Part shown: piece after piece, positions 4,907 to 37,286 of the stretch
Position numbering within the stretch: position 1 is the first letter of the stretch
How the letters are laid out: the number at the start of each line of letters is the position of its first letter
Assembly: GCF_000014005.1 (NCBI RefSeq)
Contig: NC_008009.1
Span: 3,534,001-3,598,000, forward strand
DNA: 64,000 bases
From: Candidatus Koribacter versatilis Ellin345
GTDB taxonomy: Bacteria; Acidobacteriota; Terriglobia; Terriglobales; Acidobacteriaceae
Reading direction: 5' to 3'
Translations under genes and position numbers: made by a program
The notes under the pieces: generated by a model
What the model was told of the DNA's origin: nothing
Seen by the model: only the letters and a program-made list of their open reading frames with translations
Databases searched by the model: none

Positions 4907-5398
4907 CTATTGCAGCGCGTTGTCGTTCGAGGTTGCTGAGCCGGTTTGGTTGTAGCGAATGACTCCGGTTTCGTCGCTGTAGAATCCGCGCTGACCGGTG
5001 GAACCGACCGTGATTGGGCTCGCGGCAATGGAGTAGAGCGACTGCGGAGTGGCGGCGGCGGCGCCGCTGAGGACGAACGTGTAACCGCTCTTAGTGCCAG
5101 CACCGAGAACGTTGTCGATGAGACAGGCGCGCGTGGAAGTCGCGCGGCGGCTACCGGTATCGCAGATACGCGTGGGGCCCGCAAGGTTTGTGAGGGTCAG
5201 GGTGAAACCGACGTCGGGATAGGCGGAGGAGTAAGTCATTTCCGCGGTGTTGATGGTGCGGAGTGAGCCGACGGCCGATGCTTCGTTCGCCGCCATGCGG
5301 GACCGCAACAAATTTGGGATTGCGATCGCGGCGATGATCAGGATGATCGCCACCACAATCAGCAGTTCAATTAGCGAGAAACCTTTTTCTGCCGCCAT
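4907..5398 (-). CDS. Type IV pilin-like prepilin (class III signal peptide)
   Basis: A 163-residue prepilin. The leader is six residues long, MAAEKG, with cleavage and N-methylation expected between G6 and F7. The mature start FSLIELL carries the canonical Glu5, followed by a hydrophobic helix (IVVAIILIIAAIAIPNLL) and the RMAANEASAVGSLRTINTAEMTY stretch common to acidobacterial and deltaproteobacterial PilA-like proteins. Two cysteines in the globular part (CDTG and ACLID) could form a disulfide. No pilus assembly genes are adjacent, so it is an orphan pilin or pseudopilin exported by machinery encoded elsewhere. Confidence 0.9.
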   Translation of the reverse strand: MAAEKGFSLIELLIVVAIILIIAAIAIPNLLRSRMAANEASAVGSLRTINTAEMTYSSAYPDVGFTLTLTNLAGPTRICDTGSRRATSTRACLIDNVLGAGTKSGYTFVLSGAAAATPQSLYSIAASPITVGSTGQRGFYSDETGVIRYNQTGSATSNDNALQ

Positions 5399-5612: not shown

Positions 5613-5787
5613 GCAGGGGCTAAAGCCCCGTTTCAAAAGGCGATTTTCGGAGCGACTGAAGTCGTGCCCTGATACAAACTCGCCTCGATACGAGTTTTTC
5701 AGCAGTCTGTGAGGTCGTGCCCCGATACAAAACCTTTCGAAACGAGTTTTCCCAGCAGTCTATGAAGTCGTGCCCTGATACGAGGCG
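5613..5787. repeat. Intergenic repeat, family B, with three ~53-bp tandem units
   Basis: The element opens with the hairpin GGGGCTAAAGCCCC (5616-5629). Three tandem copies of a ~53-bp unit follow, marked by GAAGTCGTGCCCTGATAC at 5658, 5711 (GAGGTCGTGCCCCGATAC) and 5764, spaced exactly 53 bp apart. The first unit contains CGAC-TGAA-GTCG and a second hairpin AAACTCG/CGAGTTT (5676-5697) followed by T residues. The GGGGCTAAAGCCCC start and the CCTGATACAA end recur at 11655-11719. Together with family A this fills the gap between the pilin and histidine kinase genes. Confidence 0.75.
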
Positions 5788-5791
5788 CGAA

Positions 5792-7549
5792 CTACGAAAC
5801 GGCGCTGGTTTTGTTGCTGCGGGCGGGCATGAACAGGAGTTGCTTGCGCGGGAGGATGAAGGAGAAGACGGCGCCGTGGTTGAGTTCGCTTTCGGCGCGG
5901 ATTTCGCCGCCGTGGGCGCGGACGATGTGTTTGGCGATGGCGAGGCCGAGGCCGGTGCCGCCGGATTGCACGGAGCGCGCTTTGTCGACCCGGTAGAAGC
6001 GTTCGAAGAGACGCGCCAAGTGCTCTGAGGGAATGCCGGGGCCGAAGTCGCGGATGTAGAAGAGGACGCGGTCTTCGACGTCGCGGGAGCCGAGGAGAAT
6101 TTTGCCGCCGGTGCCGCCGTACTTCACGGCGTTGTCGAGCAGATTGCTGAAGACCTGGCGAAGGGCGTCGCGGTCGACTTCGACTTCGCCTTGCGCGGTG
6201 TTCATCACCGAGAGCTCGATGCCCGCGCCGCGATGGTGGTCCTGGAAATTTAATTCCGCTTCCGCAAGGAGCTCGCCGGGAGTGACGGCGTGGAACTCCA
6301 TGCGCTGTTCCCCGCTTTCGACGCGGGCGAGAGTGAGGAGATCTTCGGTGAGCCGGTACATGCGCTGGGCGTTGCGGCGGATGATCTCCACGAATTCGCG
6401 GGCCGGATCATCTTCGCGGAAGGCCTCGCTCAAAGTTTCGGCATAGCCCTGGATGGAAGTCAGCGGCGTGCGCAATTCGTGCGAAACGTTGGCGATGAAG
6501 TCGCGGCGAGTCTTTTCAACGCGCTCGGTTTCGGTGAGGTCGTGGAGAACCGCCACTGCGCCGCCGCCGGGCATAGGCGCGGTGGTCGCAGTGAAGGTGC
6601 GTCCGGGCAGAAGAGTGCTCACGCGGGTCGAGGTGACACGGCGGCTCTCGAGTGCCTCCTGCACGCCGCGGAGGAACTCGGGGTCGCGGACGGTCTCGAT
6701 GATCTTGCCATTGCGTCGAATACCGGTGGGCAGCATGCGTTCCATGCGCTGATTCGCCCACATCAGGCGGCCATCGTTGGAGACGGCGATGACGGCTTCC
6801 TGCATGGAGTTGAGCAGGGCTTCGAGTTCCTGGCGACTGCTTTCAACTTGCGCGAATACTTCCTGCAACTGGCGAGCGGTCTTGTCGAGCGCGGTGGCGA
6901 CCTTGCCGATTTCGTCGGTGGAATCTTCAGCGATTCGCGCCGAGAGATCTCCGGCGGCGATGCGATCAGCGAAGTAGACGATGGCCTTGAGGCGTCGGCT
7001 GATGTTTTGGGTGGCAAATGATGCGAGCAGGAGCGCAAGCGCGGCGGCGAGCAGCGAACTCAGCAGCAGGGTGTGGCGAACTTGTCCGGTAATGGCATCG
7101 AGCGCGGAGAGCGGATAAGCGAGACGAACGGCGCCACCGGGAATGGGGGCTGCGGTGTAGAGAAAGTTGATGCCGAGAGTATGGCTACGGCGCGTGTTGG
7201 TGCCGATGTTGCCATGCAATGCGGCGACGAACTCAGGCCGCGTGGCGTGGTTCTCCATGTCGGCGGGGTTGGCGTCGGAGTCGGCCAGAACGAGGCCGTC
7301 GGAGGTGATGACGGTGGCACGAGCGTTGGCGGCCTTGGAGACTACGCGGGCGATCGACGGCAAGTCGGCATTGCGTTCAGCCTGGACGCGCAGCGCGAAG
7401 AGCTGCACTTTTTCGCGCAGCGAGGATTCGATTTCAGTTTGAAGAGAGTTGACCCAAGCGCGACGGATGGCAATATCGAGGGTCAGGGTGCAGGCGGCGA
7501 TAACGACGAGATAAGCAAAAAAGAGTTTGAGGAAAATCCTTCCTCTCAC
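5792..7549 (-). CDS. PhoR-type sensor histidine kinase
   Basis: A 585-residue membrane kinase. It has an N-terminal membrane segment (residues about 8-27), an extracytoplasmic sensor region to about 150, a second membrane segment (about 165-185), HAMP, a PAS domain (about 250-340), HisKA with the H-box FIANVSHELRTPL and HATPase_c with NLLDNAVKYG, DFGPGIP and GGTGLGLAIAKHI. The PAS-HisKA arrangement is that of PhoR. It starts with GTG overlapping the response regulator stop (GTGA), so the two are translationally coupled. No pst or phoU genes are nearby, so phosphate sensing is plausible but not shown by context. Confidence 0.93.
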   Translation of the reverse strand: MRGRIFLKLFFAYLVVIAACTLTLDIAIRRAWVNSLQTEIESSLREKVQLFALRVQAERNADLPSIARVVSKAANARATVITSDGLVLADSDANPADMENHATRPEFVAALHGNIGTNTRRSHTLGINFLYTAAPIPGGAVRLAYPLSALDAITGQVRHTLLLSSLLAAALALLLASFATQNISRRLKAIVYFADRIAAGDLSARIAEDSTDEIGKVATALDKTARQLQEVFAQVESSRQELEALLNSMQEAVIAVSNDGRLMWANQRMERMLPTGIRRNGKIIETVRDPEFLRGVQEALESRRVTSTRVSTLLPGRTFTATTAPMPGGGAVAVLHDLTETERVEKTRRDFIANVSHELRTPLTSIQGYAETLSEAFREDDPAREFVEIIRRNAQRMYRLTEDLLTLARVESGEQRMEFHAVTPGELLAEAELNFQDHHRGAGIELSVMNTAQGEVEVDRDALRQVFSNLLDNAVKYGGTGGKILLGSRDVEDRVLFYIRDFGPGIPSEHLARLFERFYRVDKARSVQSGGTGLGLAIAKHIVRAHGGEIRAESELNHGAVFSFILPRKQLLFMPARSNKTSAVS

Positions 7550-8238
7550 TTCGGTACCTCGAACCGATAGCCGGCCCCGCGCACCGTCTTCAAATAGCGG
7601 GGATCCTCGGGATTCTCCTCAATCTTCTCACGAATCCTTCGGACGTAAACGTCCACCGAACGCGGGGTGACGTAGTGGGTTTCGCGCCAGACGGCATCAA
7701 GGAGCTGGTCGCGGGTGAAGACGCGGCCGGGATGGCGCGCGAGGTACTCGAGCAGGCGGAATTCCGTGGCAGTGGTCGTAACCAGATTGCCACGAACCGT
7801 GAGCGTCATAGCGCCGTTATCAATGACGATGTCGCCGGCGGTAACGACGGCGGGCGGCAGTGGGCGCTCGAAGCGGCGAAGCACGGCCTTGATGCGGGCG
7901 ATGAGCTCGCGCGGGCTGAAGGGCTTAGCGATGTAGTCGTCGGCACCGAGATCGAGGCCGGCGATTTTATCGGCTTCCGATGTTTTGGCGGTGAGGAAGA
8001 TCACGGGAGTCATGGCAATGCTGCGGCTGTGGCGGATCTGGCGGCAGATTTCGAGGCCGTCCGCGCCGGGGACCATGATGTCCAGGAGAAAGAGATTAGG
8101 AGGCGTTTTTTCCGACTCGGGGATTACGCCGTTTCCCGTGAGAAATGTGCGAACTGCGAACCCTGCGCCTTCCAGGTGATAGCGCACCAGCCGAGCAATA
8201 TCGGCATCATCTTCGACGACAAAGACCGTTTGTTTCAC
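7546..8238 (-). CDS. OmpR/PhoB-family response regulator
   Basis: A 230-residue regulator. The receiver domain covers residues about 1-120, with the acidic pair in VEDDADI, phospho-acceptor Asp in LFLLDIMVPG, Thr in FLTAKT and Lys in YIAKPFSP. The winged-helix DNA-binding domain is C-terminal, with EFRLLEYLARHPGRVFTRDQLLDAVW and the recognition region RSVDVYVRRIREKI. It is the first gene of the pair with the PhoR-type kinase. The kinase should phosphorylate it, and it should then bind direct repeats in target promoters. No such repeats were identified in its own upstream region. Confidence 0.94.
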   Translation of the reverse strand: MKQTVFVVEDDADIARLVRYHLEGAGFAVRTFLTGNGVIPESEKTPPNLFLLDIMVPGADGLEICRQIRHSRSIAMTPVIFLTAKTSEADKIAGLDLGADDYIAKPFSPRELIARIKAVLRRFERPLPPAVVTAGDIVIDNGAMTLTVRGNLVTTTATEFRLLEYLARHPGRVFTRDQLLDAVWRETHYVTPRSVDVYVRRIREKIEENPEDPRYLKTVRGAGYRFEVPK

Positions 8239-8332
8239 GAGCTAATTGTAAACAAGAGGAGGCGGATTGCAGCCGTTTGAAAGCAGGGATTCATGGAGTT
8301 TTAACTTTGGATTGGGGGAAATGGCAGAACGC

Positions 8333-8372
8333 AGATCCTTCGTCGCTTCGCTCCTCAGGATGACAGGAGAGA
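8333..8372. repeat. Intergenic repeat, family A, copy 2
   Basis: CAGATCCTTCGTCGCTTCGC followed by TCCTCAGGATGACAGGAGAG. Same flanks as the copies at 5.54, 8.46 and 11.82 kb. The gap 8239-8541 between the response regulator and the FAD dehydrogenase holds this copy and the next, and no gene. Confidence 0.65.
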
Positions 8373-8460
8373 GTAGTGATTGTACGGGCAGGGGTGTGGA
8401 CTGGCCGCTCGGGGAACTTCTCCACGCGCATAACCCATGAGAGGGGTGACGGGATAGGGG

Positions 8461-8505
8461 TCCTTCGACTGCGCACGCTGCGCGTGCTCCGCTCAGGATG
8501 ACAGA
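8461..8505. repeat. Intergenic repeat, family A, copy 3 (intact hairpin core)
   Basis: The left flank is TCCTTCGACTGC and the right flank is TCCGCTCAGGATGACAG. Between them is a 6-bp stem GCACGC (8473-8478) / GCGTGC (8482-8487) with a 3-nt loop. The flanks match copy 4 at 11823-11877, but the stem sequence is different. Confidence 0.7.
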
Positions 8506-8541
8506 GGTTGTTAATCAACTCTCCACAATCAACGCTCCACC

Positions 8542-11500
8542 CTAATCACGGAGGTTGCGCCAGAGGAGGTAGGCGCCGAGGAGGGTGCCGGCGAGGACGG
8601 CGGCGGATTTCAGCATGGAGGTGCGGACGGCGCGTTGACGGGCTTCGACGATTCGGGACTCGGGGGGATCGCCGATTTCGCCTTCCGGGCCTTGATGGTA
8701 GGCCATGTGGAGGAGTTCCGCGGGGTGGAGGGCTTGGCGATCAGTTTGCTGCGCGATCTGTTCTCGGCAACTGAAGCCCTCGGCGACGATGATGGTGTCG
8801 CGGGAGGCAGAACGGACCTTGGGAAGAAGTTCGTGTTCGCCAACAGCGATGGAGACGTCGTACTTCTCGCCGGCTTCGAAGCCGAACGCACCGGCCATCC
8901 CACAGCAGCCGTTGTTGGGGAGTTCGTAATCCACGCCGAGGCGGTCGAAGAGCTTGTGTTCGCTCTCGACGCCAACGATGGCTTTGTGATGACAGTGCGC
9001 GTGCGCGAAGACCTTGCGATGGAGAGTGGGCAGCGGAAGCTTGTGCGCGTACTTCTCGAGGAAGTCACTGAGGAGGTAGGTTTGATCTTTTAGGCGCTGG
9101 GCTCGGGGACCGTCAGGAAAGAAATTGACTAACTCATCGCGGAAAACGGAGGCGCAGCTTGGCTCGAGGAAGACGATGGGAATGCCGGCGTCGATTTCGG
9201 CGGCGAGGGTGGTCATGGTTTTGACGAGTTGGAGCTTGGCCTGCGCGAGGAAGCCGTGGTCGTAGAGGGGGCGGCCGCAGCACATGTCGGCTTGCGGGAC
9301 GATGACCTGGAAGCCGGTGGACTCGAGGACTTCGAGCGCGGCGACGGCGGTGTCGGGATAGAAATGGTTGTTGAAGGTGTCGGGCCAGAGGAGAACTTTG
9401 GGGGCATCAAGGTTGCGCGATTGGTGGTCGCGGACGAGTTGCTGGAAGGTCTTCGGCGCGAAGGCGGGAATGCTCCGCTGCTGCGGGATGCCGGCGATGA
9501 GCTTCGCGATCGAACTCAGGCCGGGAGTTTGGGTGGCGAGATTCACGAGGCCGGGAGCGAGTGAGGCGAGACGTGCCCAATCGTGAATGAAGCCGAAGGC
9601 ATAGGCCTGGCGCGGGCGGAGGCGGTGTTCGTAGTAGTGGGAGAGGAATTCCGCTTTGTAGGTGGCGACGTCGACGTTGACGGGGCAGTCGCTTTTACAG
9701 CCTTTGCAGGAGAGGCAGAGGTCGAGCGACTCTTTAACTTCTTCGCTCTGCCAGCCGTCGCGAATGATTTCGCCCTGCATCATTTCGAAGAGCAGGTGGG
9801 CGCGGCCGCGGGTGGAGTGCTGCTCTTCCCCGGTGACACGATAGCTTGGGCACATCACTTTGTTTTCGTGGCGACGGCACTCGCCGACACCGACGCAGCG
9901 GAGTGAGGCGCGGGCGAAACTGCCGCCATCGGCGGCGAAAGTGAAGTGGGTGGACGGCTCCCAGGGATGGTAGTGGGGACCGAGACGTAGGTTGTCGTCG
10001 AGACGATTGGGAAGTACGACCTTGCCGGGATTCATCTTCCACTGCGGGTCCCAGATTTGTTTGAACTTGCGGAAGGCTTCGATGAGTTCGGGGCCGTACA
10101 TCTTCGGCAGGAGCTCGGCACGGGATTGACCGTCGCCGTGTTCGCCGGAGAGTGAGCCTCCGAAGCTGACGACGAGGTCGGCGGCTTCTTCGACGAAGGC
10201 GCGATAGGTGGCGACGCCGGATTCGGTTTCGAGATCGAAGTTGATACGCGTGTGCAGGCAGCCCTGGCCGAAGTGCCCATAGAGAGTACCGGTGTAATGG
10301 AACTTGTCGAGAAGCGATTGGAACCGGCGAAGATATTCGCCCATGCGCGCGGGGGGAACGGCGGCATCTTCCCAACCTTCCCAGAGTTGGGGCTCGCCGG
10401 GAACAAAGGCGGTGGCGCCGAGACTGGATTCGCGGATTTCCCAAACGGTTTTTTGTTCAGCGGCGTGCTGGTAGAGGCGCGCTTTGGCACGCGAACCAAC
10501 GTGGGCGAGGAGGGCGCTGGCCTGCTGCGCGGCTTCACTGGCGGAGTCGGCGCCGAATTCGATGATGAGGAAGCCGCTGCCCTCGGGAAGGAGGTCGAGG
10601 TTGAGATGGCGCAGGTGCTTGCGGCGGATGGCGGTGATTAGCTTGCCGTCGATGGCTTCGAGCGCGATGGGGTTGAAGTGCAGGAGTTCAGGGACGTCGT
10701 CGGCCGCGGCGAAGATGTTTTCGTAGCCAAGAACGACGAGGGCTCGGTGCTCGGGGTTATGAATGAGGCGGAGCTTGGCTTCGAGCACGGTGACAAGCGT
10801 GGATTCGGAGCCGACGAGGGCGCGCGCGATGTGGAAATTGTTTTCGGGGAGAAGGTCGTCGAGGTTGTAGCCGGAGACGCGGCGCGGGATCTTGGGATAC
10901 TTGGCGCGGATGAGGTCGGCGTATTGGTCGCCAATGGCTTGCATCGACCGATAGATTTCGGCGCGGCGATCGTTGGCGGCTAGGATTTGATCGAGTTGCT
11001 CACGGGACGTTGGGCCAACGGTGAGCTCGAGGCCGTCGTAGGTGAGGACGCGGAGTTCATGAACGTTGTCGCCGGTCTTGCCGGCCATGACCGAATGCAT
11101 GCCGCAGGAATTGTTGCCGATCATGCCGCCGAGAGTGCAGCGGCTGTGAGTAGCGGGATCGGGACCGAAGGTGAGGCCAACTTTGGTTGCAGCATTTCGC
11201 AACTGATCGAGAACGACACCGGGCTGCACGCGGGTGTACTTCCCTTCCCGGTTGATCTCGAGAATCTGGTTCATGTACTTCGAGAAGTCGAGGACGACGG
11301 CGACGTTGCAGCATTGGCCGGCGAGGCTGGTGCCGCCACCACGGGCGAGGACGGGAGCGCCGAATTCGCGGCAGGCAGCTAGAGTGGCGCGGACGTCGTC
11401 GTCGGATTTCGGGAGGACGACACCGATGGGGATCTGGCGGTAGTTAGAGGCGTCGGTGGCGTAGAGGGCGCGGCTGCTGGTGTCGAAGCGGACTTCGCCG

Positions 11501-11583
11501 GCGAGGGTGGAGCGGAGGCGGTGTTCGAGACGGGAGGCGTCGACATCGGATGCGATGATGGAGACGAGGTGGTCCGTGGACAT
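8542..11583 (-). CDS. FAD-linked oxidase / Fe-S (CCG-domain) dehydrogenase of the YdiJ type with C-terminal membrane anchor
   Basis: A 1013-residue fusion. The N-terminal part is a VAO-type FAD-binding domain (GGGTSLAGQ at residues 82-90), followed by an FAD-oxidase C-terminal domain to about 540. Two ferredoxin-like cysteine sets follow (CVGVGECRR...CPSY near 561-579; CLSCKGCKSDCP near 619-632). Two CCG cysteine-rich motifs come next (CCGRPLYDHG near 763, NNGCCGMAG near 887). This order corresponds to GlcD fused to GlcF, as in E. coli YdiJ (D-2-hydroxyglutarate dehydrogenase, similar length). It probably oxidises a D-2-hydroxyacid and passes electrons to quinone. The last 20 residues (AAVLAGTLLGAYLLW) look like a membrane anchor, which would keep it near the quinone pool. 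The substrate is not determined. Confidence 0.9.
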   Translation of the reverse strand: MSTDHLVSIIASDVDASRLEHRLRSTLAGEVRFDTSSRALYATDASNYRQIPIGVVLPKSDDDVRATLAACREFGAPVLARGGGTSLAGQCCNVAVVLDFSKYMNQILEINREGKYTRVQPGVVLDQLRNAATKVGLTFGPDPATHSRCTLGGMIGNNSCGMHSVMAGKTGDNVHELRVLTYDGLELTVGPTSREQLDQILAANDRRAEIYRSMQAIGDQYADLIRAKYPKIPRRVSGYNLDDLLPENNFHIARALVGSESTLVTVLEAKLRLIHNPEHRALVVLGYENIFAAADDVPELLHFNPIALEAIDGKLITAIRRKHLRHLNLDLLPEGSGFLIIEFGADSASEAAQQASALLAHVGSRAKARLYQHAAEQKTVWEIRESSLGATAFVPGEPQLWEGWEDAAVPPARMGEYLRRFQSLLDKFHYTGTLYGHFGQGCLHTRINFDLETESGVATYRAFVEEAADLVVSFGGSLSGEHGDGQSRAELLPKMYGPELIEAFRKFKQIWDPQWKMNPGKVVLPNRLDDNLRLGPHYHPWEPSTHFTFAADGGSFARASLRCVGVGECRRHENKVMCPSYRVTGEEQHSTRGRAHLLFEMMQGEIIRDGWQSEEVKESLDLCLSCKGCKSDCPVNVDVATYKAEFLSHYYEHRLRPRQAYAFGFIHDWARLASLAPGLVNLATQTPGLSSIAKLIAGIPQQRSIPAFAPKTFQQLVRDHQSRNLDAPKVLLWPDTFNNHFYPDTAVAALEVLESTGFQVIVPQADMCCGRPLYDHGFLAQAKLQLVKTMTTLAAEIDAGIPIVFLEPSCASVFRDELVNFFPDGPRAQRLKDQTYLLSDFLEKYAHKLPLPTLHRKVFAHAHCHHKAIVGVESEHKLFDRLGVDYELPNNGCCGMAGAFGFEAGEKYDVSIAVGEHELLPKVRSASRDTIIVAEGFSCREQIAQQTDRQALHPAELLHMAYHQGPEGEIGDPPESRIVEARQRAVRTSMLKSAAVLAGTLLGAYLLWRNLRD

Positions 11584-11648
11584 GAGGCTCCTGGCAACAG
11601 GAGATGATAACGCGGGGGTGGGCGTGGGGCGGTGACGGTTTGTTGGGG

Positions 11649-11721
11649 GATGCAGGGGCTAAAGCCCCGAAAGTTTTAAGGAAGAGGATCGGCATCGCTG
11701 AAGCGATGCCCTGATACAAGG
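11649..11721. repeat. Intergenic repeat, family B, copy 2
   Basis: It starts with GGGGCTAAAGCCCC (11655-11668). It ends with an 8-bp stem GGCATCGC (11691-11698) / GCGATGCC (11703-11710) around a TGAA loop, then CTGATACAA. The same start, TGAA loop and end occur near 5.6-5.7 kb with a different stem. Confidence 0.7.
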
Positions 11722-11752: not shown

Positions 11753-11817
11753 GATGTCACGAGGAGATGTCACGAGGAGATGTCACGAGGAGATCTCACG
11801 AGGAGATCTCACGAGGA
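11753..11817. repeat. Five tandem copies of a 13-bp unit
   Basis: The unit GATGTCACGAGGA occurs three times (11753, 11766, 11779). The variant GATCTCACGAGGA occurs twice (11792, 11805). There are no spacers. The array lies in the 317-bp gap 11584-11900 between the dehydrogenase start and the zinc-ribbon gene end, together with repeat copies of families A and B. No gene is seen there. Confidence 0.9.
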
Positions 11818-11900: not shown

Positions 11901-12572
11901 TTATTTGACTTCGATTTTCAGGCCGGAGACTTTGACGATTTCGATTTTGGTTTCGCCACCCATGTCTTCGGCGTTGACGGTGAGGGTGCCGCCTTTGTCG
12001 TCGCTTACGAGGCTGAACTTGTTGCCGTCCAAGGAGGACATGGCGCTGGAGTAGCGCGACTTGTAGAAGTCCGCGACTTTCTGGACGGAGTCGCCGGTGG
12101 TGAGTTTGATGCTGGCGGTGGTCATGTTGCCGAACTGGGCTTCGGAGCTGTCGCCGGATTGCGACGCACCGGGATACATATCGACACCGATTTTGCGAGC
12201 GAGGTCGCGGGCGGTGCTTTTGTTGGTGGATGCTTTGAAGCCGCCGAAATCCACAGAATTGGAGTTGCCGTCGTGCATCATGCGAGCGCGTTCGACGCGG
12301 CTCTTGATGCGGTGGGCGACGAAGACCATCGAGCCAATGCTGAGGATGAAGATCACGACCAGCACGCCACCGACGATCAGAAGAATTTTGCCGATGTTGC
12401 TACCGCCCGAGGAAGGAGGTTGCGGGGTGTAGGCCTGGATCGGAGGTACCGCAGCAGGTGCGGCGGATGTGGCGGCGGGAGCGGTGCCGGCCGGGGTGAC
12501 GCTCTTACCGCACTTCGTACAGAAGTGCGAGGTTGCATCCATCGTGGAACCGCAATTCGTACAGAAAGCCAT
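11901..12572 (-). CDS. Zinc-ribbon membrane protein of unknown function
   Basis: A 223-residue protein. The N-terminus is a zinc ribbon with two CxxC pairs (C4/C7 and C18/C21; FCTNCGS, FCTKCGK). An Ala/Pro-rich linker and one membrane segment (about residues 60-85, IGKILLIVGGVLVVIFILSIGSM) follow. The outer domain of about 135 residues has no recognised family; it resembles small beta-rich 'SVQKVADFYKSRY' sensor-like domains seen in Acidobacteria. By topology the ribbon would be cytoplasmic and the larger domain extracytoplasmic. It is a single-gene unit between two repeat-containing gaps. No function can be assigned. Confidence 0.85.
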   Translation of the reverse strand: MAFCTNCGSTMDATSHFCTKCGKSVTPAGTAPAATSAAPAAVPPIQAYTPQPPSSGGSNIGKILLIVGGVLVVIFILSIGSMVFVAHRIKSRVERARMMHDGNSNSVDFGGFKASTNKSTARDLARKIGVDMYPGASQSGDSSEAQFGNMTTASIKLTTGDSVQKVADFYKSRYSSAMSSLDGNKFSLVSDDKGGTLTVNAEDMGGETKIEIVKVSGLKIEVK

Positions 12573-37234: not shown

Positions 37235-37263
37235 TTGAGTCCCGAAGGCACGCAAGAAAATAG

Positions 37264-37286
37264 CCCACCTCGTAAGAGGTGGGTTT
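37264..37286 (+). terminator. Rho-independent terminator of purM
   Basis: An 8-bp stem CCCACCTC (37264-37271) / GAGGTGGG (37276-37283), loop GTAA, then TTT. It is 29 nt past the purM stop and 12 nt short of the convergent gene's stop codon. Confidence 0.8.

Follow-up and report, generated by a model that had tools for sequence, protein, structure and literature searches.

The window analysed here, a stretch of 64,000 nucleotides from Candidatus Koribacter versatilis Ellin345 (G000:C1:3534001-3598000, within a single-contig genome of 5,650,368 bp), carries at two loci complete copies of a short repeat built from two hairpins and a conserved tail. We consider it very likely that these are dispersed, non-autonomous copies of a repetitive extragenic palindromic (REP)-like element, and that they are served by an HUH transposase of the RAYT (REP-associated tyrosine transposase) type, which acts on single-stranded DNA. 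The repeat forms a genome-wide family with a defined anatomy, the arms of its second hairpin are matched and vary, its copies lie between genes, and copies frame a RAYT gene both here and in many related genomes. On this reading it is a mobile repeat of a known type rather than a new RNA machine, and as a system it is ordinary. The first-pass annotation of the window had noticed a shared layout at the two loci; that observation is real and was understated. Both loci hold one and the same element, with exact matches to the first hairpin and to a 13-mer spanning the tail and with matches to a covariance model of the family.

The repeat unit measures about 66 bp and consists of a first hairpin, H1 (CAGGGGCTRAAGCCC), a near-random spacer of 20-25 nt, a second hairpin, H2 (GGCAnnnnTRAAnnnnTGCC), and a tail, CTGATACAA. 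The consensus of 77 genomic copies reads CAGGGGCTRAAGCCC, a spacer of ~20-25 nt, TTCGGCAnnnnTRAAnnnnTGCC and CTGATACAA, usually with a G on the 5' side and with A, then G or C, then C on the 3' side; the flanks of the copies share no sequence beyond -1 and +3. Among the 77 copies, pairwise identity is 94% in H1, 81% in H2 and 98.6% in the tail columns, and the aligned identity of the spacers is 38.5% against 28.5% expected from base composition. A G precedes the 5' CAG of H1 in 61 of 76 copies, giving a GCAG foot; the foot 3' of H2 is CTGA (TCAG on the opposite strand), CT lying directly 3' of the hairpin. The two hairpins differ in stem and agree in loop sense, and only their CAGGG...CCCTG ends are inverted between them.

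Copy 1 occupies window positions 5614..5677 and copy 2 positions 11653..11719, both on the plus strand, like all parts of them described here. They match R1, the covariance model built from the 77 genomic copies (alignment A2, which includes both), at 67.0 bits (E 1.8e-18) and 76.4 bits (E 2.3e-21), respectively. H1 is exact in each copy: GGGGC-TAAA-GCCCC stands at 5616..5629 in copy 1 and H1 of copy 2 at 11655..11668, GGGGCTAAAGCCCC occurs at these two places, and the query GGGGCTRAAGCCCC at up to one mismatch has no other match in the window (0.03 expected). H2 of copy 2 (11691..11710), located by stem search and R1 match, has a TGAA loop on the perfect 8-bp stem GGCATCGC/GCGATGCC, the sole perfect stem of at least 5 bp around TGAA (or TTCA) in the window, and is followed by the conserved tail CTGATACAA at 11711..11719. 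H2 of copy 1 (5649..5668), placed by sequence and model alignment, keeps the TGAA loop and has a worn 5' arm, its stem GGAGCGAC/GTCGTGCC containing one non-pair and one G.T. The first-pass annotation had described TGAA hairpins with different stems at the two loci; the loop and the 8-bp stem of the second locus stand, whereas the separate 4-bp CGAC/GTCG design proposed for the first is really a worn form of the same 8-bp stem. The 13-mer TGCCCTGATACAA is exact at 5665-5677 and 11707-11719, with one-mismatch copies at 5718 and 5771; at up to two mismatches the window holds five matches against 0.95 expected, the fifth (32772) being unrelated to the element. Besides the two copies, an R1 search of the window returns a marginal match (E 0.036) that is the opposite strand of the second H2. 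The three ~53-bp tandem units announced for the first locus do form an array on the tail side of copy 1 (5657..5783, with 13-mer tails at 5665, 5718 and 5771; Tandem Repeats Finder gives 5657-5781, period 53, 2.4 copies); units 2 and 3 lack the 5' arm of H2, however, so that a TGAA hairpin is possible in unit 1 only.

The genome-wide covariance model search that the first-pass annotation had recommended yields at least 137 R1 matches at E <=0.001 in the source genome, a minimum, since scoring covered only 150 of the 3403 candidates. The 13-mer TGCCCTGATACAA occurs exactly 102 times (58 + 44), against 0 for its reversed control. All but one of 87 complete copies lie outside called genes, an approximate figure, since the RAYT gene, which overlaps a copy at its 3' end, escaped the simple gene caller. 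Copies admitted to alignment A2 had to possess an H1, AA as the last two loop bases and six or more of the eight H2 pairs; two copies with an identical 65-bp sequence were entered once, and both copies framing the RAYT gene were kept. The 95.6% of paired positions in A2 is inflated because copies were chosen by H2 pairing, and the test of arm matching selected sites by the tail alone in the source genome, and by tail and loop in its relatives.

The further copies do carry compensatory changes. Over 337 kb of the source genome, with no hairpin required, 86 of 208 tails (up to one mismatch) are preceded by a perfect 8-bp stem, against a mean of 15 and a maximum of 27 in 1000 shuffles of the 3' arms. 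Where H1 lies upstream the perfect stem is found at 74 of 90 tails (shuffled mean 21, maximum 32), and when distinct arm pairs with H1 are counted it is found in 8 of 21 (1.2 shuffled, maximum 5). Among loci from other genomes, 129 of 206 tails preceded by a YNAA loop show perfect stems, compared with 18.5, and so do 20 of 59 distinct arm pairs, compared with 1.2. Within A2, 112 cells show two-sided changes against 43 after shuffling (none of 500 shuffles reached 112). The covariation score of 0.270 compares with 0.087 shuffled and with at most 0.062 when the partners are slid. Common H2 stems include GGCAGCGC, GGCACGAC, GGCATCGC and GGCACGGC, and the loop in 105 tails with at least seven pairs is TGAA in 79 and TAAA in 20. 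The arms of H2 are thus matched and vary under a constant loop, and the covarying stem inferred from two loci in the first-pass annotation is a property of the family at large. Such matching could also arise by template-switch repair of quasi-palindromes, which would need neither a factor that reads the structure nor selection. The varying pairs within one genome are few and inner, and one stem type differs from another by whole blocks of inner bases, not pair by pair, as that process would have it; on the other hand, loop and tail stay constant while the stems vary, and the same loop recurs at the RAYT flanks of other genera. We regard template switching as a rather unlikely source of the matched arms, and one that is compatible with recognition by a RAYT, as both can hold.

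The source genome encodes four Y1 transposases, the best of which (query match 1900224-1900718, minus strand; gene G000:C1:1900203-1900718) passes the NCBIfam model NF047646 (REP-associated tyrosine transposase) with 108 bits against a cut-off of 80. Among solved structures, the TnpA_REP chain 4er8 is nearest to it in sequence. Residues H66, H68 and Y126 are invariant in 22 aligned relatives (alignment A1, which omits loci with a stop, L069, L076 and L078, and the contig-end or partial loci among L062-L091, namely L065 and L088-L091), and family membership suggests that they are catalytic. Two divergent copies of the element frame the gene, at 1900185-1900252 (minus strand) and 1900722-1900789 (plus strand), within a cluster of eleven complete copies at 1899872-1901554. 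The RAYT frame continues across the downstream H1 as far as a TGA stop codon within the H2 loop, the gene thus fitting between, and into, its framing elements. In other genera, RAYT relatives lie between copies of this hairpin and tail that have other stem sequences, both sides not being seen at every locus read. Two genomes (G089 and G098) contain divergent pairs of the 13-mer, four per genome among those listed and mostly 121-169 bp apart (one 26 bp; an example is G098:C95:97774 and 97897), which would fit back-to-back elements without a RAYT between them.

The association extends over the bacterial order, of which we sampled 150 genomes, scoring up to 34 candidates per genome for R1 matches. 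Such matches are present in 130 of the 150, and a match to the source genome's RAYT protein at E <=0.001 in 122. The outer family f2 is nearly empty, with R1 matches in 2 of 14 genomes (1 and 3 matches). The median number of R1 matches is 30.5 in the 122 genomes with any RAYT match against 1 in the 28 without; within family f1 the medians are 31 (117 genomes) and 4 (19 genomes). At least three exact 13-mers occur in 16 of the 26 genomes with a close RAYT (best E <=1e-40, source genome included) and in 7 of the 124 others. In this comparison and in that of the medians, the genomes without a listed RAYT match include 8 assigned by elimination from the sample. The tail bases also follow the enzyme: exact tails read GTTAC in 17 of 35 cases in genomes whose RAYT is flanked by GTTAC and in 13 of 336 where it is flanked by GATAC (p 0.003, p-values here overstating the evidence because the genomes are related). 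This comparison covered 6 GTTAC and 16 GATAC genomes, 5 and 15 of them with any exact tail, and used the best-matching RAYT locus per genome; of the 30 RAYT loci, it excluded 2 whose tail reads GACAC and 6 lacking a readable tail.

The mechanism that we propose for the family is that of a RAYT acting on single-stranded DNA. The enzyme would recognise the hairpins by their loop, which reads TRAA on one strand and TTYA on the opposite one, and by their foot (GCAG before H1, CTGATAC after H2) rather than by stem sequence; on this proposal stems may drift provided that both arms change. It would nick near the tail and paste copies into intergenic gaps, and repeated nicking or slippage at the tail would enlarge local arrays on the tail side.

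Arrays of this kind are common in the source genome (the eleven-copy RAYT cluster is excluded from all array and orientation counts). Further tails, at up to two mismatches and in steps of up to 112 nt, lie on the tail side of 40 of 76 copies, and within 112 nt upstream of 9 of 76. In 36 copies there is a second downstream tail (up to one mismatch, without an H1 of its own), and in 29 of these the sequence shared by the second unit extends for under 20 nt leftward from the tail, short of a whole H2. Step lengths vary by locus from 11 to 102 bp. Single copies in relatives have a further tail downstream in 5 of 23 cases and upstream in 0 of 23 (5 of 28 loci were too short and were skipped), and the one congener in the sample (G164) leans weakly the same way, with 5 of 28 downstream and 2 of 28 upstream (2 of 30 too short, skipped). 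The 53-bp unit of the window resembles units at several loci of the source genome and in the congener, from which it appears that this composite was probably copied whole; growth of the arrays themselves may have proceeded by tail-anchored nicking or slippage. The longest tail array, at G000:C1:1277373-1277700, has 14 tails at ~19-bp steps after one element, and at one RAYT locus (L082, in G022) a 19-bp tail array with seven consecutive tails lies outward of the gene.

Several considerations weigh against this interpretation of the family. Two of the five covariation measures in A2 are not clearly above the shuffle control: there are 5 pairs with two-sided changes, where the control gives 3.5 and 22 of 500 shuffles attain the observed count, and 10 further pair types, where the control gives 10.2 and 364 of 500 attain it. 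Both stay near the control because few stem types recur many times. The near-random spacers render any recent copying of whole elements invisible. The foot, GCAG or TCAG, departs from the canonical GTAG of REPs. The asymmetry of G.T and A.C mispairs in H2 does not point consistently to one folding strand: in stems with one non-Watson-Crick pair, A.C/C.A outnumber G.T/T.G by 37 to 6 rows in relatives (24 to 6 by locus and type), but stand at 2 to 7 in the source genome. The related genomes of the survey are not independent data points, and 7 of the 28 without a RAYT match have at least 10 R1 matches. The congener, an assembly 93% complete in 340 contigs, has 75 R1 matches but, of a close RAYT, just one fragment (query residues 16-63 at 60% identity, longer matches being 26-31% identical). 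Copies therefore persist in genomes without the enzyme.

This persistence is also what would be expected were selection maintaining the copies as cis-acting host elements, at the level of RNA or DNA (a stabiliser of mRNA 3' ends, an attenuator or a protein-binding site), with the RAYT accounting for their origin only. The conservation of H1, H2 and tail around near-random spacers fits such a role, as does the placement of copies: of those outside the RAYT cluster, convergent gaps hold 24 and divergent gaps 7 (the same pieces contain 35 and 33 such gaps of at least 60 nt; p 0.016), and between co-directional genes 30 lie on the opposite and 14 on the same strand (p 0.023). Ordinary REPs are, however, also reported to prefer unidirectional and convergent gaps, and 29 of 36 second array units keep less than a whole H2. 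Furthermore, no shared sites were found for the 30 of the congener's 75 copies that were compared with stretches of the source genome around copies, none being found at the same site and in the same orientation. Three congener copies have gene flanks matching the source genome: at L260 there is a source-genome copy in the same gap at another position and orientation, and at L239 and L248 the matched gene lies several hundred bases from a source-genome copy. The orthologous site of window locus 1 was not comparable, the congener having the kinase followed by other sequence without the element. We doubt that selection for a host function maintains the family, and on the RAYT interpretation the window copies need have no function for neighbouring genes. 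Neighbouring copies share orientation beyond expectation (24 runs against 38.6, z -3.4). A search for replication-strand bias, with dnaA at 408, gave 14 plus and 16 minus copies in the first half of the genome and 28 and 18 in the second, which is no clear bias.

The first-pass annotation took the constant loop with its covarying stem as the mark of a structured element. The structure is confirmed, but the structured RNA that this implied is not: neither locus has an Rfam match at the gathering threshold, and the framing of the RAYT gene points to single-stranded DNA. That the family consists of small non-coding RNA genes is highly improbable for the same two reasons, and the flanks, in sharing no sequence beyond -1 and +3, offer no common promoter close by. 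The RNA fold at locus 2 is stable (z -3.3 and -3.9), as such genes would predict, and that at locus 1 weaker (z -2.05 and -1.2). Folded as single-stranded DNA, the whole element at locus 2 scores z -3.8 and -4.2 on the two strands relative to shuffles; locus 1 has no clear excess (z -0.8 and -0.45). The sole Rfam match of the window at gathering threshold is an Acido-Lenti-1 RNA (RF01687) at 37238-37283 on the minus strand, with 57.7 bits against a gathering score of 37.

Both window copies sit between two minus-strand genes as called by a simple hexamer method. Judging by the translations, the neighbours of copy 1 are a sensor kinase gene (5792-7549), which has its 3' end towards the copy, and a pilin-like gene (4907-5398); those of copy 2 are genes at 8542-11583 and 11901-12542. 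Five 13-bp tandem units (GATGTCACGAGGA, 98% matches) at 11753-11817 begin 34 nt past the tail of copy 2.

With regard to known systems, the element resembles REPs in being a short palindrome present in many copies, mostly intergenic, with copies framing a RAYT gene; its foot is not GTAG (GT[AG]G), for which reason we call it REP-like rather than a GTAG REP. A closely related precedent is an account from 2013 (PMC3733652), which reports that the repeats flanking ORF1552 of Koribacter versatilis, a RAYT-like gene, recur in its genome; like the present case, this TIRYT (the repeats are termed TIRs, terminal inverted repeats) is an acidobacterial RAYT-like gene framed by inverted repeats of a genomic family. 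The ORF numbers given there, 1552, 2776 and 3477, fit three of our four Y1 genes, at 1.90, 3.29 and 4.10 Mb, in order and in spacing, the ratio being 0.573 for the numbers and 0.584 for the genes. The element family is probably the ORF1552 TIR family; were the two identical, the existence of the element would already be known. The portions of that text available to us give no two-hairpin anatomy, matched arms, order-wide spread or tail-side arrays for the ORF1552 TIRs, and the GGGGWSAS that they describe as common to some TIRs does not fit the GGGGCTRA of the element. REPINs (PMC3116915, 2011), as far as the accessible text of that report goes, share with it conserved ends, a less conserved spacer, compensatory changes and RAYTs in the genome, and tandem REPIN clusters including flanks in Pseudomonas are like the arrays seen here. 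A REPIN, however, comprises two inverted copies of one REP and a spacer, and this identity is ruled out by the differing stems of H1 and H2, which have only the CAGGG...CCCTG ends in common, and by their common loop sense. In Stenotrophomonas maltophilia, REPtron group 3 (PMC8266576, 2021, in the sections consulted) likewise has an 8-bp perfect palindrome with a short loop, and there a loop base is needed for cutting, which occurs at a CT dinucleotide; the motifs DHVH, WQ and YIAKNP of our RAYT resemble those listed for subclass 2.5. Group 3 has a GTAG foot and a 3-nt loop, in contrast to the GCAG/TCAG foot and 4-nt TRAA loop of the element; by analogy, the group 3 RAYTs would be the closest mechanistic model, the CT next to H2 being a further likeness. 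Finally, the class 3 TnpA_Y1 genes of Planctomycetes, Acidobacteria and Proteobacteria (PMC6006769, 2018, again from a partial text) are also flanked by atypical hairpins, sometimes in high copy number, and are ruled out as the identity of this enzyme by their class motif, Y----Q as opposed to YIAKNP.

One further feature concerns the start of the RAYT gene itself. Of 71 distinct RAYT loci with a match beginning at residue 1, 49 have a hairpin (loop TTYA or similar) whose end lies 3-14 nt upstream of the ATG, the distance being 5 nt in 26 of them; by eye this hairpin is H1, except at L141 and L142, where it is H2-like. Literature searches, which covered result listings and the four papers cited above, found no earlier report of a RAYT start codon preceded by a REP hairpin. 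It has been suggested that REP hairpins may lower RAYT translation (PMC3733652), in a paper from which the terms Shine, ribosome, start codon and initiation are absent. Across RAYT loci L062-L163, the hairpin has a Shine-Dalgarno-like site on its far side in some clades. The H1 pattern was recognised at 53 loci, and AGGA, GGAG or GAGG lies just upstream of it in 31, against 16 of 121 elements away from RAYT genes (8/74, 2/21 and 6/26); the source genome's own RAYT is among the 22 loci without such a motif. One protein cluster contributes 20 of the 31, and counted by cluster the figure is 7 of 20 (p 0.02). A looser score, applied without a control, places a site at 42 of the 53 loci, upstream of H1 in 38, and looping out H1 would bring the spacing to 4-8 nt in 29 of these 38. 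We treat this arrangement as a lead and not as a result. Tentatively, and with the odds against it, H1 may double as a translation switch: lying between the Shine-Dalgarno-like site and the AUG of the RAYT mRNA, it would on folding create a working distance, and binding of RAYT to H1 would limit the enzyme's own synthesis. If true, the element would serve its transposase both as substrate and as regulator throughout a bacterial order.

What began as a hunch from two loci has become a RAYT repeat family that is well delimited, occurs in most of the order as sampled and comes with a searchable model. Because its stems are matched by nature while loop and tail stay constant, it offers ready substrates for finding out which features a RAYT recognises. 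Testable hints on copy growth and RAYT silencing come from the arrays on the tail side and from the hairpin in front of the RAYT start codon. More generally, the family illustrates that covarying intergenic hairpins need not be RNA.

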